From NCBI GenBank assembly GCA_001940825.1, contig MSGT01000052.1, forward strand, positions 1 through 58,792: a stretch of 58,792 nucleotides of DNA, written 5' to 3'. A model generated the notes under the pieces. That model did not search any database. It was not told the DNA's origin and saw nothing but the letters and a program-made list of their open reading frames with translations. The number at the start of each line of letters is the position of its first letter. Within the stretch, counting starts at the first letter, position 1. Source of the DNA: Sphaerochaeta sp. Phil3 (GTDB taxonomy: Bacteria; Spirochaetota; Spirochaetia; Sphaerochaetales; Sphaerochaetaceae). Of this stretch, positions 26,212-45,380 are shown in pieces. The translations under genes were made by a program, and so were the position numbers.

Positions 26212-27141
26212 ATGAGTGATGTGGAAGTTGGAAATGCCACTGTGAATGGTGGCAAACCTGACATTGTTTTGATGACTGACTTTGGGCTTACGACAGGTTT
26301 TGTAGGTTCCATGTACGGCGTGATACGCAAGGTGGACCAAAGCCTTGGAGTGTTCGACCTCAACCATGAGATACGACCATACGACATGAGACAGGCAGCT
26401 TTCCTGCTCGCCGATACCGTCATGTACTGGAAGGACGGAACCGTTTTCGTATCCGTCGTAGACCCTGGAGTTGGAACATCACGCAAGTCGTGCGTTGCGC
26501 TTTTGGAGAATGGCAGCTATGTGGTGACTCCTGACAACGGAACGCTAACTGCAGTGAAGGACCACATTGTTGCAGTGCGTGAGATAGACGAGAGCGTCAA
26601 CCGCCTCTCTGGATCGGAGCGTGCCAACAGTTTCCATGGCCGTGATGTCTATGCCTACACCGCTGCTCGCCTTGCTTCTGGTATAATCGATTACGAGGGG
26701 GTGGGGCCTGAGTATTCCGTAGATGAGATAGTTTTGTTTCCCCAGACCAAGGGCCACGTGGAACCTGGTCTCGCAAGGGGCTGCATAACGGGCTGCCTCA
26801 AGCACTTTGGCTCTCCTGAGACCGATATCTCAGTGGTTGACTTCGAGAAGACAGGCATAGTGTACGGCGACATGGTCCATGTTCGCATAGAGAAGAAAGG
26901 TGCGGTTCTCTTTGATATGCCTGTGCTCTATCACAAGTCGTTTGGGTTCGTGCCTGAAGGCGAGCCCATACTTTGCAACGGAAGCACAAGTCCATACATG
27001 GAGATAAGCCTGAACAAACGCAGCTTCGCCCAGAGATACCTTCCAGACATCTTCGATGACGGCGAGGTTTTCACTGACTATTCCATTGAGATTTCAAAGC
27101 TATCGGGTTGTAGTGCCCACCAGTTTTCCAAGGAGGTGTGA
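26212..27141 (+). CDS. SAM hydroxide adenosyltransferase family (DUF62), paralogue C, intact
   Basis: A 309-residue paralogue with all three catalytic positions: Asp84 and Arg91 in VDPGVGTSRK and His142 in FHGRD. The stretch from VDPGVG to TPDNGTLT is identical in protein and nearly so in DNA to paralogue A, a sign of recent duplication or gene conversion. The C-terminal domain is complete. A longer N-terminus (about 16 extra residues) and a C-terminal tail distinguish it. The gene follows B by 4 nt and is followed 1 nt later by D. Confidence 0.9.
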   Translation: MSDVEVGNATVNGGKPDIVLMTDFGLTTGFVGSMYGVIRKVDQSLGVFDLNHEIRPYDMRQAAFLLADTVMYWKDGTVFVSVVDPGVGTSRKSCVALLENGSYVVTPDNGTLTAVKDHIVAVREIDESVNRLSGSERANSFHGRDVYAYTAARLASGIIDYEGVGPEYSVDEIVLFPQTKGHVEPGLARGCITGCLKHFGSPETDISVVDFEKTGIVYGDMVHVRIEKKGAVLFDMPVLYHKSFGFVPEGEPILCNGSTSPYMEISLNKRSFAQRYLPDIFDDGEVFTDYSIEISKLSGCSAHQFSKEV

Positions 27142-27142
27142 T

Positions 27143-27634
27143 ATGAGGCCATTTGTAGTTATGCAGACCGATTTTGGCGTAGGTGGCGGTGGTGCCATGT
27201 ACGGTGTATGCAAGACCGTTGACCCTGATCTAGGTGTCTACGACCTTAGCCATGTCATTCCAAAGTTCAATGTGGAGGCGGCGTCCAAGTCCTTGGTGTC
27301 AGTGATTCCATATTGGCCTGTCGGAACCGTGTTCGTATCCGTCGTGGATCCAGGCGTTGGAACTTCAAGGCGTGCATGCGTGGCAAAGACGTCCAACGGC
27401 TACTATGTCGTCACGCCTGACAACGGAACGCTTACGCTTCTCAAGAAGGAGTTTGGCATTGATGCCGTAAGGGAGATAGACGAGACCGTAAACAGGCTCA
27501 AGGGCACGGAGAAGACCAGCATATTCCATGGCAGAGACCTCTTTGCATACTGCGCCGCACGCCTTGCTTCAGGAGTGATAGACTTCGAAGGCGTTGGCCC
27601 TGGGTATCCAGTGGAGGAGATTGTCCTTTACTAG
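27143..27634 (+). CDS. DUF62 paralogue D, N-terminal domain only
   Basis: A 163-residue protein starting 6 nt after a perfect AGGAGG. It has an intact triad (Asp69, Arg76, His129) but ends at EEIVLY, exactly where the paralogues pass into the C-terminal domain. Because the active site needs the C domain of the neighbouring subunit, it could work only with a partner paralogue, or it is a decaying gene. No C-domain coding sequence follows; the convergent paralogue E begins to read 50 nt away. Confidence 0.8.
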   Translation: MRPFVVMQTDFGVGGGGAMYGVCKTVDPDLGVYDLSHVIPKFNVEAASKSLVSVIPYWPVGTVFVSVVDPGVGTSRRACVAKTSNGYYVVTPDNGTLTLLKKEFGIDAVREIDETVNRLKGTEKTSIFHGRDLFAYCAARLASGVIDFEGVGPGYPVEEIVLY

Positions 27635-27658
27635 TTCAAGAGAGACGTTTCAGAAAAT

Positions 27659-27700
27659 GCTTCAGAAGGCGAGGCCGTTGGTGGTCAGGCTTTCTGAAGC
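27659..27700. terminator. Inverted repeat between convergent DUF62 genes
   Basis: GCTTCAGAA (27659-27667) pairs with TTCTGAAGC (27692-27700) around a GC-rich 24-nt loop that can extend the stem. It overlaps the last codons of paralogue E and may terminate both convergent transcripts. Confidence 0.5.
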
Positions 27701-28572
27701 TTTATTGCCCAGTTCTCACCTGAACCAATTCTGTACTCCTGTGCGAAGCTTCCTTGGTTTATTGCAAGGCCAACGTTCAGGAGGCTGTTTATGTACAGAA
27801 GCGGTTCGCCTATCTCCACTTCAGTGAAGTTCCTGCACATTCGCATCGTATAGCCAAAGACTATCTTGTGGTTGTGGCTTATGAGGACCCTCACATCGTC
27901 TCCGTACTTGATGCCGTACTTCTCGAAGATCATGGTGTCCGGGATGTTGGTCCAAAGGCTTCCATAGCGTGTGTCAAGGACGTCTATGTTTCCACAGACC
28001 TCTCCTCCTTCTATGACCGGATCCGATACGTTGAGCATGACGGGGTTTGGTTCAAGAAGGGGACCCACTTCGTCGAACGTTATGGTTCCGCTTGCAATCC
28101 TAGCTCCAGTGTATGCATACACGTCACGTCCATAGAAGGTGAACGACCTTTGGCTGTTCTTGAGCCTGTTGACGGTCTCGCTTATCCTACGTCTTTCAAG
28201 GATTCCAATCTCCTTTGCAACGTGCGACAGTGTGCCGTTGTCAGGTGTCACTATGACGTGTCCTGTTTTTGTAAGCACCGCCACGCTTTCACGTTCCGAT
28301 CCCACACCCGGGTCCACGACTGATACGAAAACGGTTCCGGGGGCCCAGAACGACATCGTTTGGATGAGTCTGTAGCTTGCCTCCCATATGTTGAACTGTG
28401 GGATTTCATGCGTAAGGTCTTCAAGCTTGAGGTTGTGGTCCACTTCGTCCGCAACTCCGTGCATGGCGCTCACGGCTCCGTCCACATATCCAAAGTCCGA
28501 CATGAACACAACAGTGCCCCTTTTCGTCCATGGTGCAAGCTCTTTGAGCTCCTTTGCGCTTTCGTATGTCAT
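27685..28572 (-). CDS. DUF62 paralogue E, catalytic His replaced by Tyr
   Basis: A 295-residue DUF62 protein on the opposite strand. Asp87 and Arg94 are present (VDPGVGSERE), but the conserved FHGRD reads FYGRD, with Tyr147 at the catalytic His position. The rest, including TPDNGTL and the C-terminal ending GSGENWAIKLQK, is conserved. It is the most diverged intact-length copy and may have altered chemistry or none. A GGAGG stands 9 nt before the ATG. The Rpn nuclease gene lies 50 nt upstream on the same strand. Confidence 0.85.
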   Translation of the reverse strand: MTYESAKELKELAPWTKRGTVVFMSDFGYVDGAVSAMHGVADEVDHNLKLEDLTHEIPQFNIWEASYRLIQTMSFWAPGTVFVSVVDPGVGSERESVAVLTKTGHVIVTPDNGTLSHVAKEIGILERRRISETVNRLKNSQRSFTFYGRDVYAYTGARIASGTITFDEVGPLLEPNPVMLNVSDPVIEGGEVCGNIDVLDTRYGSLWTNIPDTMIFEKYGIKYGDDVRVLISHNHKIVFGYTMRMCRNFTEVEIGEPLLYINSLLNVGLAINQGSFAQEYRIGSGENWAIKLQKA

Positions 28573-28622: not shown

Positions 28623-29495
28623 TCATTGTCCAATGATTCTTTGGACCTCTTCGATGCCAAGGGAAGCACATTTTGCAATCATTGGGATTGGAATTCCGTT
28701 TGCATTCATCTCCTTGACCATGCGGTTTCGTTCGTTGGAGACACCTCTAGCCTCTCCAATGGAGATTCCTTCAGCCTCGCCGGCGGTTCTGCCCTCGTCG
28801 TATTTGTCCTTTAGAAGGAACTCCAGCTTCATGTACTCTTTCCTCCAGTCGTCGTCTCTGTTGTACTTCTGTACGTACTTGTCCAGAACCGTCACAAGCC
28901 CGCTTCTGGTCTCCATCCCTATGGCCCCGACACCTCCGTTCAGATACCTGAACAGCTCGTCCATGTCCAGGTTGGAGACGCCCTTGGAACCTCTGCTGTT
29001 CAGGAACATGATATATCTACGGTCCCCAAGTGGCAAGCCTTGGACGTCCTCGCACATCGTGGAGAACCTGTAGACCTTCTCGTCTTTTGCAAACGGATCG
29101 AACGTGCACAGGAATATCACATAGCTTGTCCTCATGCTCCCAAAGCCCTCGCCCTTGTCCAGCATGGCTATGTCCATGGAGGAGGAATACAGCCTTGCCC
29201 TTTGGGCGAGGTCCGTGATCGACGTACGCTGCAGTTCGATGTCGTACACCGTCTTTCCATCGTCGAAGTAGACGTCGAGCCTCACGCCCCTTCTCATTGG
29301 ATCTGAGAGTATGCTCTTCTCCGCCTCGGGATGCCTTGCATACCTTATGTCCGCTATGCGGTGTTCATCGCCGAATATGGCCTCCAGCAGCTTGATGCAT
29401 GCCTTCTTGTTCTTCATGACCGTGGTGAACATGAAGTTGTTCTCCAGGGCCACGTCGTTCCTGTTCCTTGCAACTGCGTTTTCCTTAATCTTCAT
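28623..29495 (-). CDS. Rpn-family PD-(D/E)XK nuclease (putative transposase)
   Basis: A 290-residue protein of the Rpn/PDDEXK_2 group, recombination-promoting nucleases once annotated as transposases. The N-terminal NNFMFTTVMKNKKACIKLLEAIFG and the active-site strand pair RLDVYFDDGKTVYDIELQR (Asp, Glu, Gln) are typical. The tail has the Gly-Glu-Ala rich repeats EGRTAGEAEGISIGEARG and a coiled C-terminus, also usual. Start at 29495 has AGAGG 8 nt upstream; an in-frame TTG further upstream is less likely. An accessory gene next to the DUF62 cluster. Confidence 0.88.
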   Translation of the reverse strand: MKIKENAVARNRNDVALENNFMFTTVMKNKKACIKLLEAIFGDEHRIADIRYARHPEAEKSILSDPMRRGVRLDVYFDDGKTVYDIELQRTSITDLAQRARLYSSSMDIAMLDKGEGFGSMRTSYVIFLCTFDPFAKDEKVYRFSTMCEDVQGLPLGDRRYIMFLNSRGSKGVSNLDMDELFRYLNGGVGAIGMETRSGLVTVLDKYVQKYNRDDDWRKEYMKLEFLLKDKYDEGRTAGEAEGISIGEARGVSNERNRMVKEMNANGIPIPMIAKCASLGIEEVQRIIGQ

Positions 29496-29590
29496 ATCTA
29501 AGACCTCTCTGAATTTGGATTGAAGGGCTTTGGAAACCCTACATAATTCCAAATACGAGAAACCTGCAGTTTCCGTTCTCGCTTTTCGAA

Positions 29591-29741: not shown

Positions 29742-30764
29742 ATGCAGAGCCGCTACGTTTTCGTGTCAGATGAGACAAACATTCATTTCAACCTTGCCTT
29801 GGAGAAGTACCTCATAGAGGAGTTCGACCCTAAGTCCACAATTCTTTTCCTTTGGCGCAACAGCCCTGTTGTGGTCATTGGACGCTATCAGAACCCTTGG
29901 GAGGAGTGTAGACTCTCTGCAATGGAGGACAACAACGTCGTCCTTGCAAGGCGTTGCAGCGGGGGAGGTGCGGTCTATCAGGACCTTGGAAATATTTGCT
30001 TCACGATAATTTCCCCAGCGGATGAGAGCGACAAGGCCCGCAACTTCAAGGCCGTAGTGGAGGCCTTGGACATGATGGGTATAAAGGCTCAGGTAAGCGG
30101 AAGGAATGATGTCGTCGTAGATGGACGCAAGGTGTCAGGCAGTGCGTTCCAGACAACGAAGGGCAGGTTCTGCCACCATGGAACCATGCTGGTCTCCACT
30201 GATCTTTCCTGCCTTCCAAATTACCTTACTCCAAACAAGAGAAAGCTTGAGAGCCATGGAGTACGCTCTGTGGCGTCCAGAGTGGCAAACCTCGTGGAGT
30301 TCTCTCCAAATGCCACAACGGAGATGTTCGCATCCTGCATGGAGAAGGCGTTTGAAAACGAATTCTGTGGCAGTGCGAATGAAAATGCAACTGAAAAATG
30401 CCCTGTCGAGCATATTGGACTTGAAAAAACAAAGGCCTGGCCGTCTTTGAGGCAATCGTTTGAAATGTTCTCAAGTAGGGATTGGAATCTTGGGAAGTCT
30501 CCTACGTTCACGGATAGGTTCAGCGGAAGGTTCGAGCTTGGGTGCGTTACGTTCTATCTTGTGGTGAAGAAAGGCGTGGTCTCAGAGGCATCGGTCTCAA
30601 GCGATACCTTGGTGTCGGGTGGGGTTGAAAGGCTTGAGCAGGAGATTGTAGGCCTTCCTTACGATGCCGTGCGAATAAACGAAAAGGCCAACGCAGTCTC
30701 GGATCCGTTCGTGTCCGGTGCATTGGCCCTTCTGTACAGTCTTATGGTTCAGGATTCTCAGTAG
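29742..30764 (+). CDS. lplA: Lipoate-protein ligase A
   Basis: A 340-residue ligase that activates lipoate with ATP and joins it to a lysine of lipoyl-domain proteins such as GcvH or the E2 subunits. Motifs are NIHFNLALEKYL, FLWRNSPVVVIGRYQNPW, the lipoate-binding LARRCSGGGAVYQDLGN and SGSAFQTTKGRFCHHGTML. The C-terminal accessory domain is present and has an insertion rich in Asn/Glu. The ATG has no ribosome binding site, and TATATT ends 6 nt before it, which suggests a leaderless mRNA. It overlaps the convergent acidic gene by 7 nt. Confidence 0.9.
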   Translation: MQSRYVFVSDETNIHFNLALEKYLIEEFDPKSTILFLWRNSPVVVIGRYQNPWEECRLSAMEDNNVVLARRCSGGGAVYQDLGNICFTIISPADESDKARNFKAVVEALDMMGIKAQVSGRNDVVVDGRKVSGSAFQTTKGRFCHHGTMLVSTDLSCLPNYLTPNKRKLESHGVRSVASRVANLVEFSPNATTEMFASCMEKAFENEFCGSANENATEKCPVEHIGLEKTKAWPSLRQSFEMFSSRDWNLGKSPTFTDRFSGRFELGCVTFYLVVKKGVVSEASVSSDTLVSGGVERLEQEIVGLPYDAVRINEKANAVSDPFVSGALALLYSLMVQDSQ

Positions 30765-31015
30765 TCTTCGTCCTGATTGTCGTCCGAGTACTCGTCGTCA
30801 TAGTAGAAGCCGTCCCCCATGAGGTCGTCCTCTTCGTCTTCATCGTCCTCGTCGTCATCCTGATAGTCGTAGTCTTCGTAGTCGCTCACGTCCGGTGCGT
30901 CGTAGGCATCTTCGAATTCCTCGTCCTCGTCGAAATCGTCCTCATCATCCTCATCGAAGTCGTCGTCTTCGAGAGTGTCGTCATCACCGAACAAATCATC
31001 GTCCCAATCAGACAT
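30758..31015 (-). CDS. Hyper-acidic small protein
   Basis: An 85-residue protein in which 52 residues are Asp or Glu and none is Lys, Arg or His; the rest are mainly Tyr, Phe and Gly. A GGAGG lies 6 nt before the ATG, so it is a real gene. Such proteins can bind cations, act as DNA mimics or serve as chaperone-like tails, as in the RNA polymerase delta subunit, but there is no folded delta-type domain. Its 3' end overlaps lplA. Confidence 0.75.
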   Translation of the reverse strand: MSDWDDDLFGDDDTLEDDDFDEDDEDDFDEDEEFEDAYDAPDVSDYEDYDYQDDDEDDEDEEDDLMGDGFYYDDEYSDDNQDEDY

Positions 31016-31127
31016 TGCAACCTCCAGTTGTCTGAAAGGATAATTGCATAGCGGTGGCATGTCAATTGAGTTTTTGCTATACTCTGCGCATCCACTCACT
31101 AAATAGATAAAGGAGAAGGAACGAAAA

Positions 31128-32267
31128 ATGAACAGAAAACCAAGAATAGCCGTAGTGCTGCTTCTAGCACTTGCCATACTACTCTCTGTTGCAGGATGCT
31201 CCACATCCATAGCTCTCAGGACACTCGTCCCGGCTGAGGTCAACGTAAGCGGTTACAAGACCATTGCCGTGCAGTCCACTGCGTACAACTACTCGCCATC
31301 CGACCTTTGGTGGAGGTATTTCTTCATTCCAATCAGAGGAAACGTAGAGGAACGCTACATCAACGACCTGAAAAAGTTTTCGCTGTTCGATGCCTCAACG
31401 TCGAGCAATGTTGCAAAATATGCATCGGAGAACCTTGTCAGGGCCATCGACAAGGGATATTTCGATATCAAGTCCCCAAATCTTACAGACCCTCTCATAA
31501 CGGTTGGAAAGAGCCTTGGAACCGTTAGGCAGACCCTTATGGACAATGGTGTGGATGCACTGCTCACATCCAACATAAGCTACATGAACTACGACGAGTT
31601 CATAGAGTCCGAGCCTGTCTATTCCAAGGAGACTCCAAACACCGTCGTTGGCTACAGGTTCTATCTGAACCAGAGCGCGACCATAAGCCTTACGTACTCC
31701 GTGATAGACGTTGAGAACAACGTGATAATAGGAAACGACACGCTTACAAGGTCATGTGGACCGTTCAGGACCCTCATAGGACATACGAACGATGCCAAAG
31801 AGTTCGTATCGGACCGCAACTATTTCGAGCTCAGGCATGCATCGGATATCTTCGACGACCTTATAGACGGCTTTGTGGACGACATCACAAGAAAGCTTAC
31901 GCCCCACTATGTGACATCCTATTTTGGACTCATGGACAACAAGCCAAAGGTGAAGTCCCTAGAGAGCGCCTACGACTATGTGAAGAGCGAGAACTATAGA
32001 ACGGCTCTGGATCTTTTCGTGGCCGAGTACAATAGGTCCGGCCATGTGGCGGCTGGTTACAACGCCGCAATCCTGTACTATACCCTTGGTCAGTACGAAG
32101 AAGCATTCTCCATGGCAAAGGACGTCTACGAGAAGAGCGGCAACTCACAGGCTTTGGATCTCTACTATAGACTCAAGGATGTGAGGGAAAAGCAGGAGGC
32201 TGCACGCGACCAGATGAACAGCACGACGAAAAATCCATCCTCATCTGGTGAGCTTATAGGATTTTGA
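31128..32267 (+). CDS. Lipoprotein with C-terminal TPR-like repeats
   Basis: A 379-residue exported lipoprotein. The signal peptide (RKPRIAVVLLLALAILLSVAGCS) ends in a clear lipobox, AGCS. The middle, starting with VSGYKTIAVQSTAYNY, resembles outer-membrane-biogenesis lipoproteins whose first strand follows an ITIP-like pattern. The C-terminal 80 residues carry helix pairs (YRTALDLFVAEYNRSGHVAAGYNAAILYYTLGQYEEAF) of TPR type. Probably faces the periplasm. An AAAGGAG precedes the start and a good terminator (32328-32362) follows. Confidence 0.75.
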   Translation: MNRKPRIAVVLLLALAILLSVAGCSTSIALRTLVPAEVNVSGYKTIAVQSTAYNYSPSDLWWRYFFIPIRGNVEERYINDLKKFSLFDASTSSNVAKYASENLVRAIDKGYFDIKSPNLTDPLITVGKSLGTVRQTLMDNGVDALLTSNISYMNYDEFIESEPVYSKETPNTVVGYRFYLNQSATISLTYSVIDVENNVIIGNDTLTRSCGPFRTLIGHTNDAKEFVSDRNYFELRHASDIFDDLIDGFVDDITRKLTPHYVTSYFGLMDNKPKVKSLESAYDYVKSENYRTALDLFVAEYNRSGHVAAGYNAAILYYTLGQYEEAFSMAKDVYEKSGNSQALDLYYRLKDVREKQEAARDQMNSTTKNPSSSGELIGF

Positions 32268-32327
32268 TGGCTTATTATGGCCTGTTTCTAATAAAAAACT
32301 GATTTTTTAACGTAAAATTTCAATTTA

Positions 32328-32362
32328 GGTCATCATTTTTAACGAATGATGGCCTGTTTTTT
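32328..32362 (+). terminator. Intrinsic terminator after the lipoprotein gene
   Basis: GGTCATCATT and AATGATGGCC pair over 10 bp (one G-U) around a 7-nt loop and are followed by TGTTTTTT. It separates the lipoprotein gene from the ATPase/RloB-like operon. Confidence 0.9.
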
Positions 32363-32458
32363 ATGTTTTCATGTTTACTCTTCCATTTTTTCGAATGTTC
32401 GGTTAGACTTTATGCTGTGAAACAGTGAAAATGCCGTTTGTCGGCAAAGGAGGCCTTT

Positions 32459-33715
32459 GTGCTTATTGATATTACTGTGGCCAATTTCAGGTCAATCAAG
32501 GAACCCCAGACGATTTCGTTTGCGGCCTTGAAGGATAAGAGGCTTGACCAGTCAAAGGTCGAGATCGTGTCCGACAAACTCAAGGTCCTAAGAACCGTTG
32601 CGGTCGTAGGTCCCAACGGTGTAGGAAAGAGCACCATTGTCAGAGCCCTCGAAGCCATCAAGGGCATCGTTACGGCGGACCTCTCAGAGGAGAACCCTCT
32701 CAAGAGAATCCTTACAGGTTCCATATTCGCCTACAACGAAATCAAGAACCAGCCTGCCGAGTTCACCGTGCGCGTGCTTCTGAGAGAGGCCACACAGGGT
32801 GAGCGGGAGGTGATCGCTACATATACGATAAAGGCCGATACGGACCATGTCTGGGAGGAGAGCCTCTACTACAACTTTGGCTCCTCCAAGAAGCTTATGT
32901 TCGAGAGGATAGCTTCGTCTGGTCTTGAGGAGGAGGTCTCCTACAAGGTTCGCTGGGGCAAGCTCTACAGAGGCGACAAGAAGCGCAGCGAGAAGGCTGT
33001 CGATTCCAAGCACTCGTTCCTCAAACACGCAGCCTCCAAGGGCGGTGAGACCTGCTCTGAGGTCTACGGATGGTTCGAGAACACTCTGGACATCCTTCCA
33101 ATGGGCGTTGGTTCGTCCTCCGAGAAGTATGTGGCTGCAATGCTCAACCAGCATCCTGCATGGAAGGACCAGCTCATAAACTTCTTCTGGAGCATGGACA
33201 TCACGGACATAAGGGACATAAGGGTTGGTTGCAACAAGGATGGAAAGTTCGTCCAGTCCAACGATGGTGACATGGTTTTCTTCATCCACTCCAACACCAA
33301 GGCTGCAATGTTCAGCCCTTATGCAAAGGAGAGCCTTTCCATGAAGAGGCTTTCGCTCCTTGCATTGGCCTTCTTCGAGGCCTTCACAAAGGGCAAGGTC
33401 CTTGTAGTCGATGACTATGGTATGTTCCTGCATCCAGAGGTCATCATCTACCTCACAAGCGTATTCACCGGCGGATGCAAGCGCGCCAGCCAGCTCTTCG
33501 TATTCGACTGCAACCCGACCCTCCTTGAGGACGGTCTTCTCAGAAGGGACGGCATCTATTTCGCAGAGAAGGACAGCGTGGGATCAACTATCTACTATCC
33601 TCTCAGCGACTTCAAGTTTGGTGCAAGTGCCAAGACGCGTGCAATGTATGAGAGCGGAGCCTTTGGAGCTCTTCCAATCACAAGCGAATTCCGCTTTGTA
33701 AACGAGGAGGCATGA
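32459..33715 (+). CDS. AAA ATPase, AAA15/RloA-like
   Basis: A 418-residue ATPase of the AAA15/AAA21 (ABC-like, OLD-type) group. Start at a GTG 5 nt after AAAGGAGG. Residues 1-25 form the strand ITVANFRSIKEPQTISF usual for this group. Walker A GPNGVGKST is at 51-59. Near residues 312-327 the Walker B reads LVVDDYGMFLHPE; most relatives have DE followed by SLHP, so the catalytic Glu is replaced by Asp. A D-loop and the His switch follow. The RloB-like gene starts 1 nt after it, as in RloAB-type or PARIS-type defence pairs. Confidence 0.82.
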   Translation: MLIDITVANFRSIKEPQTISFAALKDKRLDQSKVEIVSDKLKVLRTVAVVGPNGVGKSTIVRALEAIKGIVTADLSEENPLKRILTGSIFAYNEIKNQPAEFTVRVLLREATQGEREVIATYTIKADTDHVWEESLYYNFGSSKKLMFERIASSGLEEEVSYKVRWGKLYRGDKKRSEKAVDSKHSFLKHAASKGGETCSEVYGWFENTLDILPMGVGSSSEKYVAAMLNQHPAWKDQLINFFWSMDITDIRDIRVGCNKDGKFVQSNDGDMVFFIHSNTKAAMFSPYAKESLSMKRLSLLALAFFEAFTKGKVLVVDDYGMFLHPEVIIYLTSVFTGGCKRASQLFVFDCNPTLLEDGLLRRDGIYFAEKDSVGSTIYYPLSDFKFGASAKTRAMYESGAFGALPITSEFRFVNEEA

Positions 33716-33716
33716 C

Positions 33717-34346
33717 ATGATGCGAAAGAGAAATCCAGTCCAACCAAGAAAGACTATGCTTATCGTGACTTCCAACCCAGCCCTTGCAGTCTATTTCTCA
33801 AGGGTCAGGAAGGACTGCAGATATGTCAGCCTCACTGTAGAGTGCCAGACAGCCGATAGCCTTGAGAACCTCATCAAGGTCACAGCCAAGAGAAGGATTG
33901 CAGGAAAATACTCCAGCGCCTGGGCTGTGTTCACATTCGATGACTTTGGCATCAAGGCCGGTGATGTGAACGCTTTGGCTCCGCTTGCCGATTCCAAGAA
34001 GGTGAAGCTTGGATGGACCAATCCAAGTCTAAGCCTGTGGCTCTTCCTCCACCTCAAGCCAATCAACGTCTACGTTGACAACGCAGCGTCCTTCGATCAG
34101 GCCATTGCAAAGGTCTTCCCTGGATATCAGGAGACGGAGGACTTCATGTCCAACGAAGGCAAGGACATCCATCTTAGACTGTTCTCTTCGTTCAGCACCG
34201 CAGTCCTCAATGCAAGTTCATACAACAAGCTCTGCGAAAAGGCCACCGGCCTTGCAGCCACAACTTTCCCTCTGCTGTATGAAAACATAAAGGAAATCTG
34301 TGGAGAGGCGGACCTTTCCCACAACCAGAAGCTTCTTTCCAAATAA
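33717..34346 (+). CDS. RloB-like protein with a degenerate TOPRIM site
   Basis: A 209-residue RloB-type protein. The typical layout is kept: N-terminal strand (MLIVTSNPALAVYF), a central strand (AWAVFTFDDFG) and the RloB marker KLGWTNPSLSLWLFLHL. In canonical RloB these read EGEKTE, VFDxDD and SNPxFELW. Here the first catalytic Glu has been replaced, and only the DD of the second motif remains. It probably pairs with the upstream ATPase, perhaps without nuclease activity. GGAGG is 6 nt upstream. The LuxR gene begins 9 nt after the stop. Confidence 0.7.
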   Translation: MMRKRNPVQPRKTMLIVTSNPALAVYFSRVRKDCRYVSLTVECQTADSLENLIKVTAKRRIAGKYSSAWAVFTFDDFGIKAGDVNALAPLADSKKVKLGWTNPSLSLWLFLHLKPINVYVDNAASFDQAIAKVFPGYQETEDFMSNEGKDIHLRLFSSFSTAVLNASSYNKLCEKATGLAATTFPLLYENIKEICGEADLSHNQKLLSK

Positions 34347-34355
34347 GGGGATGAG

Positions 34356-35255
34356 ATGGGCGGGTTCGTACTGTTCACCTATACAATCTCCATAGCTGTG
34401 TCGTGCATGGCTTTGGCCTTGGCCATAGCCGCACGCATATTCCGCAAGGACCCTTGGACCGGCTACTACGTGGTATTCCAAAGCTGTCTCATTGGGATAA
34501 TGGGGACGGGTTTGGCTCGTGGCCTTTCATTGTTCTTCATGCCAAATCGGGTCTATGCGGTGTTCAACTTCATATTCACGACGCTGTTGCATGCCGCAAT
34601 GGCGTTCGTGATTGTGTTTCTTCCGTTCTTCCTCAGCTGGGTAATAGCTAAACCCTGGAGAAAGCTGCAACGCATGGCGTTCTATCCTTTGGCGTTGGTT
34701 TACTTTGGGATAGGGCTTGCTTCTCAGATTGTTGAGAGCGAAAGGTTCTTCTTTTGGGTGTCAGTGGGACAGACCCTTGTATTCCTCACTATGTATGTTT
34801 TCTGCATCGTGACGCTTTGGAAGAACCTCAAGAGCATAGAGAACAAACAGTCCCGTGATGTATGCCTTGCCATAAACATCGTGAGCCTTGCACTCATCCC
34901 CCTTTGCTTCTTCTCCCTGTTCTTCGCAGCCGTCAAGGACTTCAGCTATCCAGTCTATGTTCTGGCCTTCTCCATAATCATGCTGGTCTACTACTATTCC
35001 CGTATTACGATAGATGTCGAGGAGAAGAAGCGCTCCACCTTGAGCCTTGAAAGCCTTGCCTCCTACAAGATAACAGAGCGAGAATTCTCCGTAATCCAGC
35101 TAATATGCGACGGTCTTACCAACAAGGAGATAGCAGGGGAACTGTCCATCTCCGTCAATACCGTCAACAACCATGTTGCGAACATATTCGACAAGATGGG
35201 AGTTCGCTCCAGAATAGACCTGCTAAAGCTCTTGAAGGAAGGTCCTTGGGCGTAG
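34356..35255 (+). CDS. Membrane LuxR-family regulator with seven predicted helices
   Basis: A 299-residue protein. The first 210 residues hold about seven hydrophobic helices (first VLFTYTISIAVSCMALALAIA, last VYVLAFSIIMLVYYYS) and the last 65 form a LuxR/GerE helix-turn-helix (ITEREFSVIQLICDGLTNKEIAGELSISVNTVNNHV). The membrane part may sense a small molecule or membrane state and control transcription directly. It follows the RloB-like gene by 9 nt with its own AAGGGG site, so it is in the same operon and likely controls it. Confidence 0.85.
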   Translation: MGGFVLFTYTISIAVSCMALALAIAARIFRKDPWTGYYVVFQSCLIGIMGTGLARGLSLFFMPNRVYAVFNFIFTTLLHAAMAFVIVFLPFFLSWVIAKPWRKLQRMAFYPLALVYFGIGLASQIVESERFFFWVSVGQTLVFLTMYVFCIVTLWKNLKSIENKQSRDVCLAINIVSLALIPLCFFSLFFAAVKDFSYPVYVLAFSIIMLVYYYSRITIDVEEKKRSTLSLESLASYKITEREFSVIQLICDGLTNKEIAGELSISVNTVNNHVANIFDKMGVRSRIDLLKLLKEGPWA

Positions 35256-35442: not shown

Positions 35443-36408
35443 TTGACCATCAAGGACATAGCTCAGAAGGCAGGGGTCTCGATGATAACCGTTTCGCGGG
35501 TTATCAATACGCCGGAGAAGGTCTCCGAAAAGACCCGTGAGCGCATACAGGCCCTCCTTGAAGACGAAGGATACACCCGCAACACAGCGGCGCACAACCT
35601 AGCGTCCAACAAGTCTGGGATAATATGCATACATGCCTCCAGGGATATGGCGTATCAGGATCCGTTCTTCCAGCAGTTCCTCGTCGGCGTAGGTACTTTC
35701 CTGTCCCAGGCCAACTATTCGATACAGATAGTGAGCGAGATAAAGCCGACCCAGTTCTGCGATGGATACATACTCTCTGGCTACAACTACTCGGACCATG
35801 TTCTGGACGATGCGAAGAGGACTGGAAAGCCTGTCGTGATGTTCAGCTCATACAGGGATCCGGACGTCGATAGCGTTGATACCGACAACGTCAGTTCTGC
35901 AAAGAAGATAGTCGAGTTCCTGATATCGAAGGGGCACAGGAGGATCGCTGTTTTCCTCAACAGCGTCAAGGGTACCTACGTAAACGACCGCTTCCAAGGC
36001 TATAGAAGTGCATTGGAGGAGAACGGGATACCCCTCGACAATGGTCTGATACATGTAGTGGACAACTCCGTGCAGGGAGGGATGGCCGCCGCCAAATGGT
36101 TCGACGATACCAAATGCAATGCAACTGCCGCATTCTTCATAACCGATATCATCGCCGTTGGGTTCATAATGGGGATAAAGGGATATGGTTACAATGTTCC
36201 TAACGATGTTTCGGTCGTCGGTTTCGATGGTTTGGGTCATCACCTGATGACATCGCCAAAGATTACTACCATCGTGCAGCCCGTGTATGAAATCTCGCGG
36301 GTCTTGTCTGAATGCTTGATTGACAGAATCAGAAATCCAAAGCTGCCGCCGGTCTATAGGCTGGTCGATGGTGCTTTGGACGAAGAGGAGTCGGTGAAGA
36401 ATATCTAA
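35443..36408 (+). CDS. LacI-family transcriptional repressor
   Basis: A 321-residue repressor starting at TTG with AAGGA 9 nt upstream. The HTH and hinge are textbook (IKDIAQKAGVSMITVSRVINTPEKVSEKTRERI), and the rest is a periplasmic-binding-protein-like effector domain with the late VSVVGFDGLGHHLM segment. It probably senses an oligosaccharide from beta-glucan and controls the following importer and glycosidase genes. Two near-identical operators, one at its own promoter and one inside the next gene, support this. The binding-protein gene begins 13 nt downstream. Confidence 0.93.
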   Translation: MTIKDIAQKAGVSMITVSRVINTPEKVSEKTRERIQALLEDEGYTRNTAAHNLASNKSGIICIHASRDMAYQDPFFQQFLVGVGTFLSQANYSIQIVSEIKPTQFCDGYILSGYNYSDHVLDDAKRTGKPVVMFSSYRDPDVDSVDTDNVSSAKKIVEFLISKGHRRIAVFLNSVKGTYVNDRFQGYRSALEENGIPLDNGLIHVVDNSVQGGMAAAKWFDDTKCNATAAFFITDIIAVGFIMGIKGYGYNVPNDVSVVGFDGLGHHLMTSPKITTIVQPVYEISRVLSECLIDRIRNPKLPPVYRLVDGALDEEESVKNI

Positions 36409-36421
36409 GGAGGATTTTGAT

Positions 36422-37699
36422 ATGAAAAAAGGTATCAAAGCAGTTCTTGTTATCGCTTTCATGTTAGCGTTAACATCGGGTTTTCTGTTCGCCCAGTCCG
36501 CTTCAGAGTCAAAGGACTCTTCAAGTCAGGACGTGGTGACCCTTGAAGTCTGGGCGAGAGGCGATGAAATCAAACAGTGGGTTCCAGGTTTTGAGGCTGC
36601 AAATCCTGGCATCAAGGTGAACGTAACGGTTATTCCCGACCAGGAGATGACACCAAAGCTCATAACCGTCCTTGGCAGTGGAAAAGGAGTTCCAGACCTT
36701 TTCATGCAGGAAGCGAGCTACATTACGTACTTGGTTGAAGCAGGATGCTTTGCAGACCTCAACAAGGCACCTTATCACATCAACGACTACAAAGACAACA
36801 TTTGGGATGCCATCCTCAAGGTTGGAACCGACTCCACAGGTGTCGTTAGGGCTTTGACCTGGCAGGCCAACCCTGGTGCCATCATCTATCGTAGGGACAT
36901 CGCGAAGGAGTTCCTCGGCACCGACGACCCGGCAGAGGTTGCATCCTTGCTTGACACGGATGAGAAGATGCTCGAAGTCGCAAGGAAGATGAAGGAGAAG
37001 GGCGTAAGCTTCGTATCCTGCTTCAAGGACCTCTATGACAGCAAGGTCGCCTCGAGGACGAACCCCTGGGTCGTTGACGGAAAGCTTGTCATCGACGAGC
37101 AGCTCATAGACTTCATGGATATGGCGAAGGAGATCATCGCCAACGGATACGACTTGGGTGTCGACCAGTGGGCGAGCGAGTGGATCGCAGCCGTCGAATC
37201 CGACAGCCTCTTCTGCTACATCCTCCCGCCATGGGGATACCAGTACGTCGTGAAGCCGGCTGCGGACAAGACCATCGGCAAGTGGGCGATTACGACGCCT
37301 TCCACCTCCTACATTTCCGGAGGCTCCTACCTTGGCATATATGAGAACACACCTCACAAGGAAGAGGCTTGGAAGTTCTTCGAGTACGTCATGCTCAACG
37401 ATGATGCACTGTATGAGTATGCAAAGAACAGCGGAGACTTCGTCGTCCTCAAGAGCGTCTGCGAGAAGCTCGCCCAGAGCGAAGGCGAGGAGGTCCTCGG
37501 AGGGCAGAATCCTAACGGAATGTTCATCGAAGCCATGAACCATGAGTTCAGAAGCCTGAACACCGCATACGATTCACAGCTCAACGACGCATTCGTCTCT
37601 GCTATAAAGGCCTACGCCGCCGGAATCGACAAGGACGCTGCGATCGAGCAGTTCAAGAACGATGTGAAGACGGCCTTCCCTGATCTCATCGTTGAGTGA
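36422..37699 (+). CDS. Sugar-binding protein of the beta-glucan locus ABC importer
   Basis: A 425-residue family-1 solute-binding protein with a signal peptide (KKGIKAVLVIAFMLALTSGFLFAQSAS) and a mature start VTLEVWARGDEIKQW. A perfect AAGGAGG precedes the ATG. The signal-peptide codons contain an operator-like palindrome (36461-36476). The first gene of the importer, behind LacI and before two permeases and three glycosidases, so oligo-beta-glucosides are the likely ligand. A hairpin (37731-37760) lies between this gene and the first permease. Confidence 0.92.
   Translation: MKKGIKAVLVIAFMLALTSGFLFAQSASESKDSSSQDVVTLEVWARGDEIKQWVPGFEAANPGIKVNVTVIPDQEMTPKLITVLGSGKGVPDLFMQEASYITYLVEAGCFADLNKAPYHINDYKDNIWDAILKVGTDSTGVVRALTWQANPGAIIYRRDIAKEFLGTDDPAEVASLLDTDEKMLEVARKMKEKGVSFVSCFKDLYDSKVASRTNPWVVDGKLVIDEQLIDFMDMAKEIIANGYDLGVDQWASEWIAAVESDSLFCYILPPWGYQYVVKPAADKTIGKWAITTPSTSYISGGSYLGIYENTPHKEEAWKFFEYVMLNDDALYEYAKNSGDFVVLKSVCEKLAQSEGEEVLGGQNPNGMFIEAMNHEFRSLNTAYDSQLNDAFVSAIKAYAAGIDKDAAIEQFKNDVKTAFPDLIVE
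36461..36476. promoter_or_regulatory. LacI-family operator 2, inside the binding-protein gene
   Basis: ATGTTAGCGTTAACAT differs from the same 16 nt of operator 1 at one position. It lies in signal-peptide codons about 40 nt into the binding-protein gene, so bound repressor could act as a transcription roadblock or form a DNA loop with operator 1, about 1.09 kb upstream. Confidence 0.75.
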
Positions 37700-37730
37700 T
37701 GGAGGGAAGGACCTGTCCGTCCAACGTTTG

Positions 37731-37760
37731 CTGGGGAAGGGCTGCGAGGCCCTTCTCCAG
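37731..37760 (+). terminator. Intercistronic hairpin after the binding-protein gene
   Basis: CTGGGGAAGGGC pairs with GCCCTTCTCCAG (12 bp with one G-U) around a 6-nt loop, then a T-run at 37766-37770. The position mirrors the hairpin at 8870-8897 in the other sugar operon. Confidence 0.75.
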
Positions 37761-37784
37761 AGGTGTTTTTAGGAGATGAGTTGA

Positions 37785-38681
37785 ATGTCGAAGAAAGGTT
37801 TGGCTTCCAAAACGAACAACTGGGGATATTTCTTCATAGCCCCGTTCATAATAGTGTTCATAGTGTTCGGATTGTATCCAATGGTCTATACGTTCCAGCT
37901 TTCCTTCCAGAAATGGAACGGCTTCGGTGCGGTTCAGAACGTTGGGTTCGAAAACTTCAAGAGAATCATTGCCGACAGTACATTTCCGCTCACCGTAAAG
38001 AATACATTGAAGATATGGCTTTGCGACTTCATCCCCCAGCTGGGATTCGCATTGCTTCTTTCCATGATATTCACGTTCTACAGAATCAAGGGGATGAAGG
38101 TCTTCAGAGCCGTCTACTACCTTCCCAACCTCATAACCGCCGCATCCATAGGGCTTTTGTTCAACATACTCATGAACGGCGACAAATCGACCGTCAACCA
38201 GCTTCTATCCATGCTGGGGGTCAAGTCCGCGCCTATTGCGTTCTTCAAATCCCAGTCTATGACCCAGGCGGTCGTTTCCTACATACTCTGGTGGATGTGG
38301 TTCGGCTATACAACGGTGATAGTGATGGCCGGAATAACATCCATAGAACCGGATCTGTACGAAGCGGCTCAGATCGACGGCTGCAACAGATGGCAGACAT
38401 TCGTAAGGATTACCCTGCCGTTGATAAGGCCTACGATCATATACATAACGATAACATCCGTAATAGGCGGAATGCAGATATTCGATGTGCCCGCCAACGT
38501 CACCAACATGCAGGGGGATCCTCAGAAAGCAATCCTCACGTCATCCATGTATGTGTATCAGCATGGTTTCAAGAACAACTCGTTCGGCTATGCAAGTGCA
38601 TTGTCGGTTGTGCTGTTCGTCATAATCGCGGCTTTGAGCTATCTCGCGTTCAAAACCATGAAGGGCAAGGAGGACAGATGA
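37785..38681 (+). CDS. Sugar ABC transporter permease 1, beta-glucan locus
   Basis: A 298-residue CUT1 permease with a first helix at about residues 13-37 and the EAA motif EAAQIDGCNRWQTFVRITLPLIRP before the last two helices. The gene has an AGGAGATGAG ribosome binding site. It overlaps the second permease gene by 4 nt. No ATPase gene is in the cluster, as for the first sugar operon. Confidence 0.92.
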   Translation: MSKKGLASKTNNWGYFFIAPFIIVFIVFGLYPMVYTFQLSFQKWNGFGAVQNVGFENFKRIIADSTFPLTVKNTLKIWLCDFIPQLGFALLLSMIFTFYRIKGMKVFRAVYYLPNLITAASIGLLFNILMNGDKSTVNQLLSMLGVKSAPIAFFKSQSMTQAVVSYILWWMWFGYTTVIVMAGITSIEPDLYEAAQIDGCNRWQTFVRITLPLIRPTIIYITITSVIGGMQIFDVPANVTNMQGDPQKAILTSSMYVYQHGFKNNSFGYASALSVVLFVIIAALSYLAFKTMKGKEDR

Positions 38682-39496
38682 TGGAGAAGGTTCTGAAAGT
38701 CCTGATATATGCATTCCTCATACTCCTACTCGTGATATGCATACTTCCGTTCTATCTTGTCATCGTGAATTCGACATACAGCTCGATAGACATAGTGACG
38801 AGAATAAAGTTCGTTCCTGGAGACCGCTTCCTTGAGAACTACGGAAAGCTTCAGGAACTCACCAACATATGGAGAGGCTTTGCAAACAGCCTTCTGATCG
38901 CCGTCCCCTATGTGCTGCTCACCGGGTACTTCGGAGCCTTTGCAGGCTACGGCTTCGCCAAGTATAGGTTCAAGGGCCGTGGATTCTTCTTTTGCATAGT
39001 GCTCGCCAGCATGATGCTTCCATCACAGCTCAGCATAATAGGGTTCTACAAGCTGAACCTCAAACTTGGACTCCTGAACACCTACTGGCCGTTCATAATA
39101 CCAGGGATCGCCAATGCGTCGGCGGTGTTCTTCCTGAAGGGCATGATAGAGCAGACCGTTCCGACTTCACTCATCGAGGCGGCGAGGATGGAGGGGTACT
39201 CCGAACTGGGGATCTTCAACAGAATCGTCCTCCCCTGCGTGATGCCTGGGGTCGCTACCATGTGCATATTCAACTTCGTATCGTGCTGGAACAACTACTT
39301 GGCCCCACTCATCGTCCTCAGCGACGCCAAGAAGTTCACAATGCCCATACTCATATCCACGATAAGGGGGATATTCCTCGCAAACTACGGAGCCATGTAC
39401 GTCGCCATAGCGATATCCGTGGTGCCTGTGATTGTGGTGTACCTATTCCTTTCGAAGTACATAATCAACGGACTTACCATAGGAGCTGTAAAATGA
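38681..39496 (+). CDS. Sugar ABC transporter permease 2, beta-glucan locus
   Basis: A 271-residue CUT1 permease, six helices, with EAA motif EAARMEGYSELGIFNRIVLP. Two adjacent ATGs (38678 and 38681) are possible; the second is 7 nt from a perfect AAGGAGG. An open frame continues upstream through the first permease gene and is not coding. The stop overlaps the GH30 gene start. Confidence 0.92.
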   Translation: MEKVLKVLIYAFLILLLVICILPFYLVIVNSTYSSIDIVTRIKFVPGDRFLENYGKLQELTNIWRGFANSLLIAVPYVLLTGYFGAFAGYGFAKYRFKGRGFFFCIVLASMMLPSQLSIIGFYKLNLKLGLLNTYWPFIIPGIANASAVFFLKGMIEQTVPTSLIEAARMEGYSELGIFNRIVLPCVMPGVATMCIFNFVSCWNNYLAPLIVLSDAKKFTMPILISTIRGIFLANYGAMYVAIAISVVPVIVVYLFLSKYIINGLTIGAVK

Positions 39497-40887
39497 ATGC
39501 CTATCGCATAGGATGTGATTTGAAAAGAAGTGTCGTCCCTGTGGAACGGGACATAAACCATAGAAAGATGGAGGAGAACATATTCGAAGTGTTCCCTGCA
39601 ATCCAAAAACATCGTTTCTTCGGGTTCGGCGGTGCTTTGACGCAGGCCAGCGGATACGTGCTCTCCCAAATGGACAGTCGTGATGCAAGGTCCGTCCTGG
39701 CCTCCTATTACGGCAACGACGGGGTTGGATACGGCTTTGTGAGGGTCCCCATGGACAGCTGCGATTTCTCGACGGGGCAGTACAGTGCATGCCGTACCCT
39801 GCAGGACTTCAAGAACGGCGCCTACGACTTCTCAAACGACGAGGCCTATATATTCAAATACCTCGATATCATCTGCGAGGAAGCCGGACGCAATGTACCG
39901 ATCATGTTCTCCCCTTGGTCTCCTCCTGCATACTTCAAGGACAACGGCAGCCGAATCCAAGGGGGGCGGCTCAGGGAGGAATGCTATCGCGACTGGGCCC
40001 TCTACATAGCCAGATATCTCTGTGAGTATAGAAGGCGCGGCTACAACGTATGGGCCTTGAGCATACAGAACGAACCACATGCGATCCAGACCTGGGACAG
40101 CTGCCTCTACACCGCCCATGAAGAGAGGAAGTTCCTTGTCGAACACCTCAAGGGTGCTCTTGAGGCCAACGGCCTTGGCGATGTGCTTGTGCTGTTCTGG
40201 GACCACAACAAGGAGAGGCTCGTTTCAAGAGCTGAGTCATTCCTTGACGAGGAGTCACGAAAAGCCGTAGGAGGCATAGCGTTCCACGGCTATTGTGGAG
40301 ACCACTTCGGGAACATTGGCTGGTATAGATCCTCCAACCCCATGCATAGGGTTGTTATGAGCGAATTCTGCATGGGCTTCGACGATAGGGACGACTACTT
40401 GAAACAGCTCAGGGTCTACGGCCATGAGTACATCAACGACGTCTTCTACGGCGCGGATACGATGATCGACTGGAACCTTGTCCTTGACTGCAATGGAGGT
40501 CCCAACCATGTAGGGAACTACTGCATGGCGCCGTTCATGGCAGATTCCAGGTTCAAGCCACATTCCAACATGGCGTTCGAGGTGATAAAGGCCGTTTCGC
40601 GCACAGCGGGTTCAAACGGCAGGGTCCTCTACCATTCGTCGTTCAGAAGCGACATCGACGCCGTTTCGTTCCTGAGGGCCGACGGTTCGATAGGAATCGT
40701 CTTCGGGGCCTTCGAAGGTGTCGTCGAGGACGACTTGGGAGTGTCGGGTGTAGGCAAGGATGGAAAGGCCGCATGCGGCCGTGTGGTCAATGTTAGGATA
40801 GGTGAATGCATCTTCAGGCTTTCGTTGGAGAGCGATGCCCTGACAGTCCTTGAAATAGATGAAAACGAATATGGAGTTTGCCGATGA
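39493..40887 (+). CDS. Glycoside hydrolase family 30 enzyme
   Basis: A 464-residue TIM-barrel GH30. It begins with the family's FFGFGGALTQASGYVLSQM. The acid/base Glu194 is in LSIQNEP and the nucleophile Glu291 in VVMSEFCMG. A C-terminal beta-sandwich begins around residue 370 (RTAGSNGRVLYHSSF). Related enzymes cleave glucosylceramide or beta-1,6-glucan. No signal peptide is seen, so it works in the cytoplasm on imported oligosaccharides. Start has AGGAG 7 nt upstream; ends with an overlap into the GH5 gene. Confidence 0.88.
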   Translation: MNAYRIGCDLKRSVVPVERDINHRKMEENIFEVFPAIQKHRFFGFGGALTQASGYVLSQMDSRDARSVLASYYGNDGVGYGFVRVPMDSCDFSTGQYSACRTLQDFKNGAYDFSNDEAYIFKYLDIICEEAGRNVPIMFSPWSPPAYFKDNGSRIQGGRLREECYRDWALYIARYLCEYRRRGYNVWALSIQNEPHAIQTWDSCLYTAHEERKFLVEHLKGALEANGLGDVLVLFWDHNKERLVSRAESFLDEESRKAVGGIAFHGYCGDHFGNIGWYRSSNPMHRVVMSEFCMGFDDRDDYLKQLRVYGHEYINDVFYGADTMIDWNLVLDCNGGPNHVGNYCMAPFMADSRFKPHSNMAFEVIKAVSRTAGSNGRVLYHSSFRSDIDAVSFLRADGSIGIVFGAFEGVVEDDLGVSGVGKDGKAACGRVVNVRIGECIFRLSLESDALTVLEIDENEYGVCR

Positions 40888-41993: not shown

Positions 41994-42036
41994 CCTTTGG
42001 TTCCGCTCATCGAACCATGCATGATTGGAGGTTCCA

Positions 42037-43901: not shown

Positions 43902-45380
43902 ATGGAAGTTAGAGTAAGATATGCACCGTCCCCAACGGGACTTCAGCACATAGGCGGCGTAAGGACCGCTCTGTTCAACTATTTCTTCGCAAAGTCAAGC
44001 GGGGGTAAGTTCATACTCAGAGTAGAGGACACAGACCGCGAACGCTACAGCGACGAGTCCCTTCAGGATTTGTATGACACGCTTGATTGGCTTGGCGTGA
44101 AGTGGGACGAAGGCCCTGTTGTAGGCGGTCCCTATGGTCCATACATCCAAAGCGAAAGGACCGCAATCTATCAGGAGTATGCAAAGAAGCTCGTTGACAT
44201 GGGAAAGGCCTACTACTGCTACTGTACATCTGAAAGGCTCGAACGGCTTAGAGAAAAGCAGATTGCAGAGAAAAGTCCCGTTCAGGGATACGACGGCCAT
44301 TGTCGCGACCTCACGGACGAGCAGAGAAAGGAGCTCGAGGCCCAAGGATTCAAGCCTGTCATAAGACTCAAAGTCCCAAGGGAAGGAAGCACCACGTTCC
44401 ACGATGTCCTCATGGGCGACATAACAAGGGAGAACAAGGACGTAAGCCCTGATCCTGTACTCCTCAAGAGCGACGGCTTCCCCACATACCATCTAGCCAA
44501 CGTCATCGACGACCACCTCATGGGCATAACCCACATAATGCGCGCCCAGGAGTGGATACCGTCGGGACCGCTGCACGTCCTGCTCTACGAAGCATTCGGC
44601 TGGGAGGTCCCTACGTACTGCCATCTTCCAATGGTCATGGGAAGCGACGGCCACAAGCTCTCCAAGCGCCACGGCTCCACAAGCGTGCGCGACTTCAGAG
44701 CCAAGGGCTACCTGCCGGAGGCGCTGCTGAACTATGTGAGCCTCGTAGGTTGGTCCTACGACGGAGAGAAGGAGTTCTTCACAAGGGAGGAGCTTGAGAA
44801 GTGCTTCTCTCTGGAGAAGATAAACAAGGCCCCCGGCGTCTTCGACTATCAGAAGCTCGACTGGTTCAACGCACAGTACATAAGGCAGAAGTCCGACAAG
44901 GAGCTTGCAGACCTCCTCTTGCCTTACCTCAAGGCCGCCGGCCGCCTCGACGACAAGGACTACGACAGACTCCTTGCCTTCGTACCCGGCGTGAGGGACA
45001 GACTCACACTGCTGTCCGACATCGTCCCCATGACTGACTTCCTTGAGGACCATGGCGAGCCTGACGCAGCCATCCTCATTCCAAAGAAGATGGACGCCGC
45101 TTCGTCGCTTTCATCCCTCAAGGCTGTATATGAACTTGTGAAGGACGACTTGGCAAAAGGAAGAACGGACGACGAACTTCAGAATGACCTGTGCGAGCTT
45201 GCACAGGGACTTGGAATCAAGAACGCCGGAGTATTCAATCCTCTGCGTGCAGCGGTGACTGGACTTCAGGTTAGCCCACCGCCGTTCAGCTGCATCCATC
45301 TCCTTGGTGAAGAGGAGTCGTACAGACGTATAGAACGTGCAATAGAAGTTTTGGAAAGAGAGGTAGAGAAGAATGTCTGA
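43902..45380 (+). CDS. gltX: Glutamyl-tRNA synthetase
   Basis: A 492-residue class I synthetase charging tRNA(Glu). It has the N-terminal VRYAPSPTGLQHIGGVRTALFN with an HIGG variant of HIGH, and KLSKRHGS of the KMSKS loop. The C-terminal helical anticodon domain is complete. The full length argues for discriminating or non-discriminating GluRS rather than the short GluQ enzyme. Start ATG has TTGGAG 6 nt upstream. First of a three-gene synthetase operon, overlapping glyS by 8 nt. Confidence 0.97.
   Translation: MEVRVRYAPSPTGLQHIGGVRTALFNYFFAKSSGGKFILRVEDTDRERYSDESLQDLYDTLDWLGVKWDEGPVVGGPYGPYIQSERTAIYQEYAKKLVDMGKAYYCYCTSERLERLREKQIAEKSPVQGYDGHCRDLTDEQRKELEAQGFKPVIRLKVPREGSTTFHDVLMGDITRENKDVSPDPVLLKSDGFPTYHLANVIDDHLMGITHIMRAQEWIPSGPLHVLLYEAFGWEVPTYCHLPMVMGSDGHKLSKRHGSTSVRDFRAKGYLPEALLNYVSLVGWSYDGEKEFFTREELEKCFSLEKINKAPGVFDYQKLDWFNAQYIRQKSDKELADLLLPYLKAAGRLDDKDYDRLLAFVPGVRDRLTLLSDIVPMTDFLEDHGEPDAAILIPKKMDAASSLSSLKAVYELVKDDLAKGRTDDELQNDLCELAQGLGIKNAGVFNPLRAAVTGLQVSPPPFSCIHLLGEEESYRRIERAIEVLEREVEKNV

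Follow-up and report, generated by a model that had tools for sequence, protein, structure and literature searches.

Among described systems, the closest to the locus reported here are two-gene modules in which an ATPase is paired with an RloB-type or Toprim-type partner. AbiL of Lactococcus lactis (AbiLi and AbiLii) and RloAB have this layout, and one report relates RloB to OLD_TOPRIM and describes AbiLii as a toxic effector (PMC10440598). In PARIS (AriA and AriB), the AriA ATPase is reported to sense a trigger, and AriB is released or activated and cuts tRNA (PMC12409363). A member of a defence-associated ATPase family may also serve the cell itself, for which Cran1, an OLD-family ATPase of Saccharolobus islandicus, is a precedent; it is reported as not antiviral and as needed for cell cycle progression (PMC12796447). 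Here we analyzed a 58,792-nucleotide (nt) stretch of Sphaerochaeta sp. Phil3 DNA (contig MSGT01000052.1 of assembly GCA_001940825.1, called the window below), which carries an AbiL-like gene pair, A and B, followed by a third gene, C. We found that A and B have lost residues associated with catalysis throughout the family Sphaerochaetaceae, and that they probably represent a domesticated, non-cutting AbiL-type pair with a regulatory role.

The preliminary description of this DNA had placed a three-gene operon at 32459-35255 and likened its first two genes to RloAB/PARIS-type pairs. The coordinates agree with our analysis, as all three genes lie on the plus strand with gaps of 1 nt (A/B) and 9 nt (B/C), and the AbiL-like layout was verified by profile matches. 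A matches AAA_21 in Pfam with an expectation value (E) of 1.6e-13 and AbiLi in PADLOC with E 7.5e-56. The sensitive profile search that had been proposed for B found RloB in Pfam (E 1.6e-11, above the curated cut-off), which is its sole Pfam match up to E 1, and AbiLii in PADLOC (E 1.5e-6). All 37 A representatives match the AbiLi profile and all 37 B representatives match RloB. As in AbiL/RloAB, an ATPase gene adjoins an RloB-type gene, and the two match AbiLi and RloB/AbiLii, respectively. PARIS resembles A-B in joining an ATPase to a Toprim-type partner, but AriB has its own family, DUF4435, whereas B matches RloB alone in Pfam, and the AriA profile of PADLOC scores A far lower (E 3.2e-11) than AbiLi does. 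As for C, it combines a GerE helix-turn-helix with seven N-terminal hydrophobic segments whose charge pattern is N-out/C-in, the last segment (residues 173-213) being counted as two helices, and it is indeed a membrane-embedded LuxR regulator as had been described.

The ATP-hydrolysis sites of A are altered in the whole family. Walker B of the window's A reads VLVVDDYGMFLHP, in which DD replaces DE; this change had been noticed before, and it proved to be fixed in 124 of 124 orthologues, compared with DE in all 21 canonical control ATPases from the same family and phylum. Beyond Walker B, the ABC-type signature (ESLS) and the H-loop His (DCN) are also altered, while the controls carry ES.G in 21 of 21 and the H-loop His in 20 of 21, so that the A orthologues lack the canonical motif set as a whole. 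Because Walker A is invariant (Table 1), A should bind ATP. The predicted structure of A reached a predicted local distance difference test (pLDDT) score of 58, and a PDB sequence search with A returned P-loop matches only.

In B, the altered sites correspond to the Toprim-type residue set of RloB (EG, DxD and FE), of which EG and DxD are the Toprim catalytic residues. The absence of the first catalytic Glu (TSNPALA in the window), already pointed out in the preliminary description, was confirmed in 126 of 126 orthologues, where the position is mostly occupied by Ala (107) or Ser (14), and the first Asp of DxD and the FE Glu are altered as well. Among 14 canonical RloB control partners, EG is present in 12 (one has QG and one is cut short), DxD in 14, and an FE-type Glu in 12. 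Additionally, B has gained newly conserved residues specific to the clade, such as those in the FSQMRKDCR stretch. The predicted model of B (pLDDT 92.3) places the altered EG and DxD positions just after strands 14-18 and 67-73, which would fit Toprim placement. Its top structural matches are OLD C-terminal (Toprim) regions, with Z 7.7 and a root-mean-square deviation of 4.7 over 150 residues, although unrelated entries come close (Z 6.7); PARIS chain 8ux9_A is also among the matches (Z 5.5). Foldseek gave no match for the model at E 0.001, and a PDB sequence search with B found no relative.

We then surveyed 139 Sphaerochaetaceae genomes of 22 genera, with a cut-off of E 1e-3 for B. A search widened to the order returned these 139 genomes again. 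Orthologues of B occur in 125 of 139 genomes and 17 of 22 genera, nearly always in one copy, the weaker second matches being other RloB genes; A is matched in 130 of 139 genomes, a few of which have other ATPases only. The loci compared numbered 126 (125 from other genomes plus the window). A adjoins B in 125 of them, and C follows in 116. The preliminary description had named neighbourhood conservation as a check and a lack of co-conservation as evidence against its proposal; with these counts the trio is co-conserved. Among the ten loci without C, B lies at a contig end in four, and the absence is true in six (three each of genera g13 and g22). B is missing from 14 genomes, of which 11 come from five small-genome genera (g3, g4, g8, g15 and g19; 1.1-1.6 Mb), and ten of these 11 retain C, with G018 as the exception. 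The remaining three are g17 genomes, in one of which (G105) A is cut off at a contig end, and the other two are 80% (G097) and 85% (G102) complete.

Such a distribution differs from the patchy, accessory one expected of AbiL/RloAB. Canonical RloB is patchy in the phylum (26 of 283 genomes outside the family), and a sample of 296 phylum genomes contained no A orthologue outside Sphaerochaetaceae, the best outside match being 1e-25. Among 13 family genomes sampled for RloB, 12 have a match, and in 8 of these it is single. The window's genome itself has two further RloB genes, G000:C45:5091-5633 and G000:C58:49691-50197, the latter in an intact AbiL-type pair (L185).

In a quick tree that has long canonical branches and leaves out three truncated canonical ATPases, the degenerate A proteins fall into one clade (Shimodaira-Hasegawa-like approximate likelihood ratio support 100) with a single change of state. 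Pairwise distances correlate with those of GltX at 0.86 for A, 0.84 for B and 0.77 for C (86 loci), and none of 999 permutations was as high. The genes are under purifying selection, the ratio of nonsynonymous to synonymous substitution (dN/dS) being 0.01 to 0.23 in informative pairs. This tracking of GltX together with low dN/dS argues for a domesticated, vertically inherited AbiL pair rather than a patchy defence island. A pseudogene or assembly artefact was ruled out by the open frames across loci and the low dN/dS; one A orthologue (G032) has a TAG. Degeneracy limited to one genome was likewise ruled out, since the altered sites are fixed in A and B orthologues family-wide. In the GltX tree, A-B-C is already present in early branches, and the sampled genera with C only group with the window's genus at support 100 (L059 and L237 are labelled there as lacking A-B merely because of contig ends). 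These data are read most simply if A-B-C goes back to the ancestor of Sphaerochaetaceae, with small-genome relatives of the window's genus having lost A-B, and g22 and most of g13 having lost C.

The leaders of A show a further recurring feature. The ribosome-binding site often follows a short inverted repeat at a distance of 0-12 nt, and stems of at least 5 pairs are found in 40% of 124 leaders, compared with 11% in shuffles and 3 to 18% in the leaders of other genes of the block. After 42 of the 124 had been removed as similar, such stems remained in 31 of 82 leaders against 8.6 expected, a number reached by 0 of 1000 shuffles, and seven control gene sets showed no enrichment; four contig-edge leaders (L094, L124, L127 and L160) were kept in this set and dilute the signal. 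Canonical AbiL leaders also have stems; the number, 12 of 28 where 4.9 would be expected, was reached by none of 1000 shuffles, as judged against shuffles without a neighbour-gene control and with starts assigned by script. From the canonical set, nine leaders without a recognisable Shine-Dalgarno sequence had been dropped, at least two of which (L189 and L313) have clear inverted repeats, and 7 of the remaining 35 had been removed as similar, including loci present twice. The 5' arms drift, with 53 different sequences, and so many different arms favour a structure over a single fixed DNA site. We found no palindromic operator with one common sequence shared among the leaders. However, four single leaders fold no better than shuffles (z 0.05 to -0.90), which speaks against an especially stable structure in any individual leader, and the repeat could instead be a DNA operator. 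DNA alignments of the A leaders put the stems out of register. It also counts against the leader stem that several genera show no signal and that the leaders are not fully independent. The presence of the repeat before both A and canonical AbiL genes hints at a retained nucleic-acid-binding autoregulation. In one group of canonical pairs (L188, L189, L190, L312, L313, L315 and L316), the ATPase gene is immediately preceded by a recurrent TTTGTA...TACAAA inverted repeat, possibly an AbiL operator or an RNA stem-loop.

The gene order around the trio is conserved and typically runs pdxA, c0, (cobA), a cpsB-like phosphatase gene, A, B, C, an alpha/beta-hydrolase gene, gltX, glyS and tyrS, the last two being named from N-terminal sequences. 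Counted over loci with room on the contig, the cpsB-like gene lies immediately 5' of A in 73 of 119, the hydrolase gene immediately 3' of C (or of B in loci lacking C) in 99 of 115, and gltX downstream in 89 of 95; these numbers come from tallies separate from the neighbour-family listing, whose mechanical gene calls include spurious antisense open reading frames (ORFs). Median spacings are 16 nt for cpsB-A, -0.5 for A-B, 2 for B-C and -4 for C-hydrolase. The window has neither the cpsB-like gene nor the hydrolase gene, and between its C and gltX (35443-43900) lie a LacI regulator, an ABC sugar transporter and glycosidase-like ORFs, whereas other genera have the alpha/beta-hydrolase gene or nothing at this interval. 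No hsd genes (type I restriction-modification) were seen among the annotated recurrent neighbours of A-B. A defence island was considered and rejected, as the recurrent neighbours are metabolic or translational, other defence genes nearby not having been systematically sought.

Table 1. Positions of the genes, altered sites and flanking features of the A-B-C locus in the window
Feature	Position	Strand	Remarks
c0, probable TPR lipoprotein	31128..32267	+	weak TPR matches; upstream of A in 103/105 loci with room
Terminator-like site after c0	32326..32362	+	consensus match; parts c0 from A in this genome
Inverted repeat TGCCG-TTTGT-CGGCA	32432..32446	+	just 5' of the ribosome-binding site of A (32447-32453)
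Gene A	32459..33715	+	GTG start, 418 amino acids; AbiLi/RloA-type ABC ATPase; altered Walker B, signature and H-loop
Walker A of A	32609..32632	+	GPNGVGKS; P-loop G, N, G, G, K, S invariant in 120/120
Signature of A	33329..33340	+	ESLS, canonical ES.G; E, S and second S in 124/124 orthologues
Walker B of A	33410..33415	+	DD for DE in 124/124 orthologues
H-loop position of A	33506..33514	+	DCN, canonical THN/THD; D and C in 124/124, N in 125/125
Gene B	33717..34346	+	209 amino acids; RloB/AbiLii-type Toprim-like protein without catalytic residues
Lost EGxxTEx motif of B	33768..33788	+	residues 18-24 (TSNPALA); first Glu 0/126, last Glu 0/126
Lost first Asp of DxD in B	33933..33935	+	residue 73, Thr in window; Asp in 4/126
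Lost FE-motif Glu of B	34032..34034	+	residue 106, Ser in window; Glu in 46/126
Gene C	34356..35255	+	299 amino acids; seven-helix membrane LuxR regulator
GerE helix-turn-helix of C	35073..35225	+	residues 240-290; GerE E 3e-18; many residues invariant
gltX	43902..45356	+	usually close downstream of the operon; displaced in window

Several other ORFs upstream of the trio were observed in passing. Three adjoining ORFs at 26212-28572 share VSVVDPGVGTSR-like motifs and resemble S-adenosylmethionine hydroxide adenosyltransferases; relatives of them adjoin c0 in loci of genus g19 (cluster c29). On the minus strand, 28623-29552 encodes a PDDEXK_2 nuclease-family transposase protein (E 5.6e-13), and a very acidic small ORF at 30758-31243 points away from c0; other genera have comparable acidic ORFs at the equivalent position (L079:2433-2765 and L234:4441-4704).

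According to the above-described comparison, the ancestor of the Sphaerochaetaceae probably had an AbiL/RloAB-type pair whose nuclease residues, and some of whose ATP-hydrolysis residues, were lost, and selection has since maintained the degenerate pair as a core module of the chromosome, in an operon with C. Judging from its motifs, A would still bind ATP and may act as a slow or hydrolysis-poor switch, and B would be its partner, binding RNA, DNA or protein without cutting. The A-B complex could then regulate expression through the membrane-tethered transcription factor C or through the inverted repeat in its own leader. Selection has retained ATP binding, fold and pairing in the absence of the nuclease and hydrolysis residues, which is explained most economically by a regulatory role, and A-B is likely a sensor or regulator of immune-system descent, not a killer. 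Some points weigh against this. An Asp at the position of the Walker B Glu can permit partial ATPase activity; 46 of 126 B orthologues still have the FE Glu and most keep two other motif Glu residues, although the window's B has none of these; and core presence by itself does not exclude an immune role. The independent losses of A-B and C in some genera also argue against an obligate partnership. A more far-reaching version, in which the AbiL ancestor was autoregulated by a stem-loop at its own ribosome-binding site and the Sphaerochaetaceae pair kept stem-loop and nucleic-acid binding, dropped catalysis and was wired to C as a family-wide signalling system, seems to us unlikely; the stem enrichment in the leaders of A and of canonical AbiL genes and the drift of the arms speak for it.

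The step from A-B to C is the doubtful part of the mechanism, and taken alone we regard it as possible, with the balance somewhat against it. The preliminary description had suggested a regulator-controlled pair, which was not borne out in either direction. A-B and C are separable in some genera: ten genomes of the five small-genome genera keep C without A-B, and three genomes each of g22 and g13 have A-B but no C. Outside the family, C homologues are also found in 44 of 283 phylum genomes (lowest E 2.3e-61); the matches are full-length, some partial, and neither A nor B lies beside the C-like genes in any of the seven outside loci inspected. These separations would be expected if A-B and C shared only a transcript, A-B being domesticated with a job of its own and C being an older seven-helix LuxR regulator that lies downstream by chance. 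However, the spacing from B to C is at most 50 nt in 89 of the 93 loci where both were called on one strand, despite the deep divergence of C (mean pairwise difference 0.59), and the separate losses are confined to few lineages, so we consider a merely shared transcript somewhat improbable. In spirochaete family f24 (L282, L286, L287 and L288), a C-like seven-helix LuxR gene lies directly 3' of a conserved gene of about 255 amino acids without a convincing Pfam match.

Could the pair still be an active defence system whose chemistry has changed and which became fixed as useful to the whole family? The AbiLi score, the retained pair layout and the intact Walker A would agree with this, and a derived defence or stress system had been proposed in the preliminary description. 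The derived nature was verified, the degeneracy being a trait of the family and not a peculiarity of the window, but the defence role was not. The pair is core and mostly single-copy, lies among housekeeping neighbours and follows GltX by vertical inheritance instead of being patchy, and every orthologue lacks catalytic residues (in B, the Glu is missing from all 126 and the DxD Asp from 122), while canonical copies, both in this family and in the phylum, are intact and patchy. Moreover, the PARIS Toprim nuclease mutant AriB E26A is reported to be inactive (PMC12409363), and its position should, as we infer, correspond to the Glu of B. Active defence is thus distinctly unlikely. We think it even less probable that A-B watches or regulates translation in the service of the adjoining aminoacyl-tRNA synthetase cluster gltX-glyS-tyrS. 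This cluster does lie downstream in most loci, gltX starts at the end of B in one g22 locus (L176), and the distant relative AriB cleaves tRNA (PMC12409363); yet the alpha/beta-hydrolase gene and a wider gap separate C from gltX in most loci, gltX is 8.6 kb away in the window, and the genomes with C only have the same gltX neighbourhood without A-B. As the window's genome has two other RloB genes, one of them in an intact pair, the dead pair might also act as an inactive partner that holds the intact AbiL pairs of its cell in check, but with a single RloB match in 8 of the 12 positive genomes most carry the degenerate pair alone, and this idea is very improbable.

Taken as a domesticated, probably regulatory pair, A-B differs from AbiL/RloAB in lacking the Walker B, signature, H-loop and Toprim catalytic residues family-wide, in being core and vertically inherited, and in sharing an operon with a membrane LuxR gene; the loss of catalytic residues also sets it apart from PARIS, and the absence of A or B beside the full-length C-profile matches in the seven inspected loci sets the operon apart from the seven-helix LuxR proteins of other Spirochaetota. 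Compared with Cran1, an archaeal OLD protein reported to have nickase and ATPase activity (PMC12796447), it is a two-gene pair without catalytic residues. In the open-licence PubMed Central (PMC) literature, judged from listings, we found no published description of a degenerate AbiL-type operon and no paper joining Sphaerochaeta and LuxR, and the listings for Sphaerochaeta and abortive infection were on other topics by title.

In genome annotation, defence callers that rely on profiles can flag AbiL across most Sphaerochaetaceae genomes for a pair that probably cannot cut, and a PADLOC AbiL call on A-B would probably mislead. With the inverted repeat in the leader, autoregulation of AbiL can be put to a direct test. 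Sphaerochaeta has cultured members, which offer a family setting for asking what non-killing ATPase-Toprim pairs do. If the reading of A-B as a domesticated pair is true, it would show clearly how a two-gene abortive-infection module can be stripped of its catalysis and domesticated throughout an entire bacterial family.

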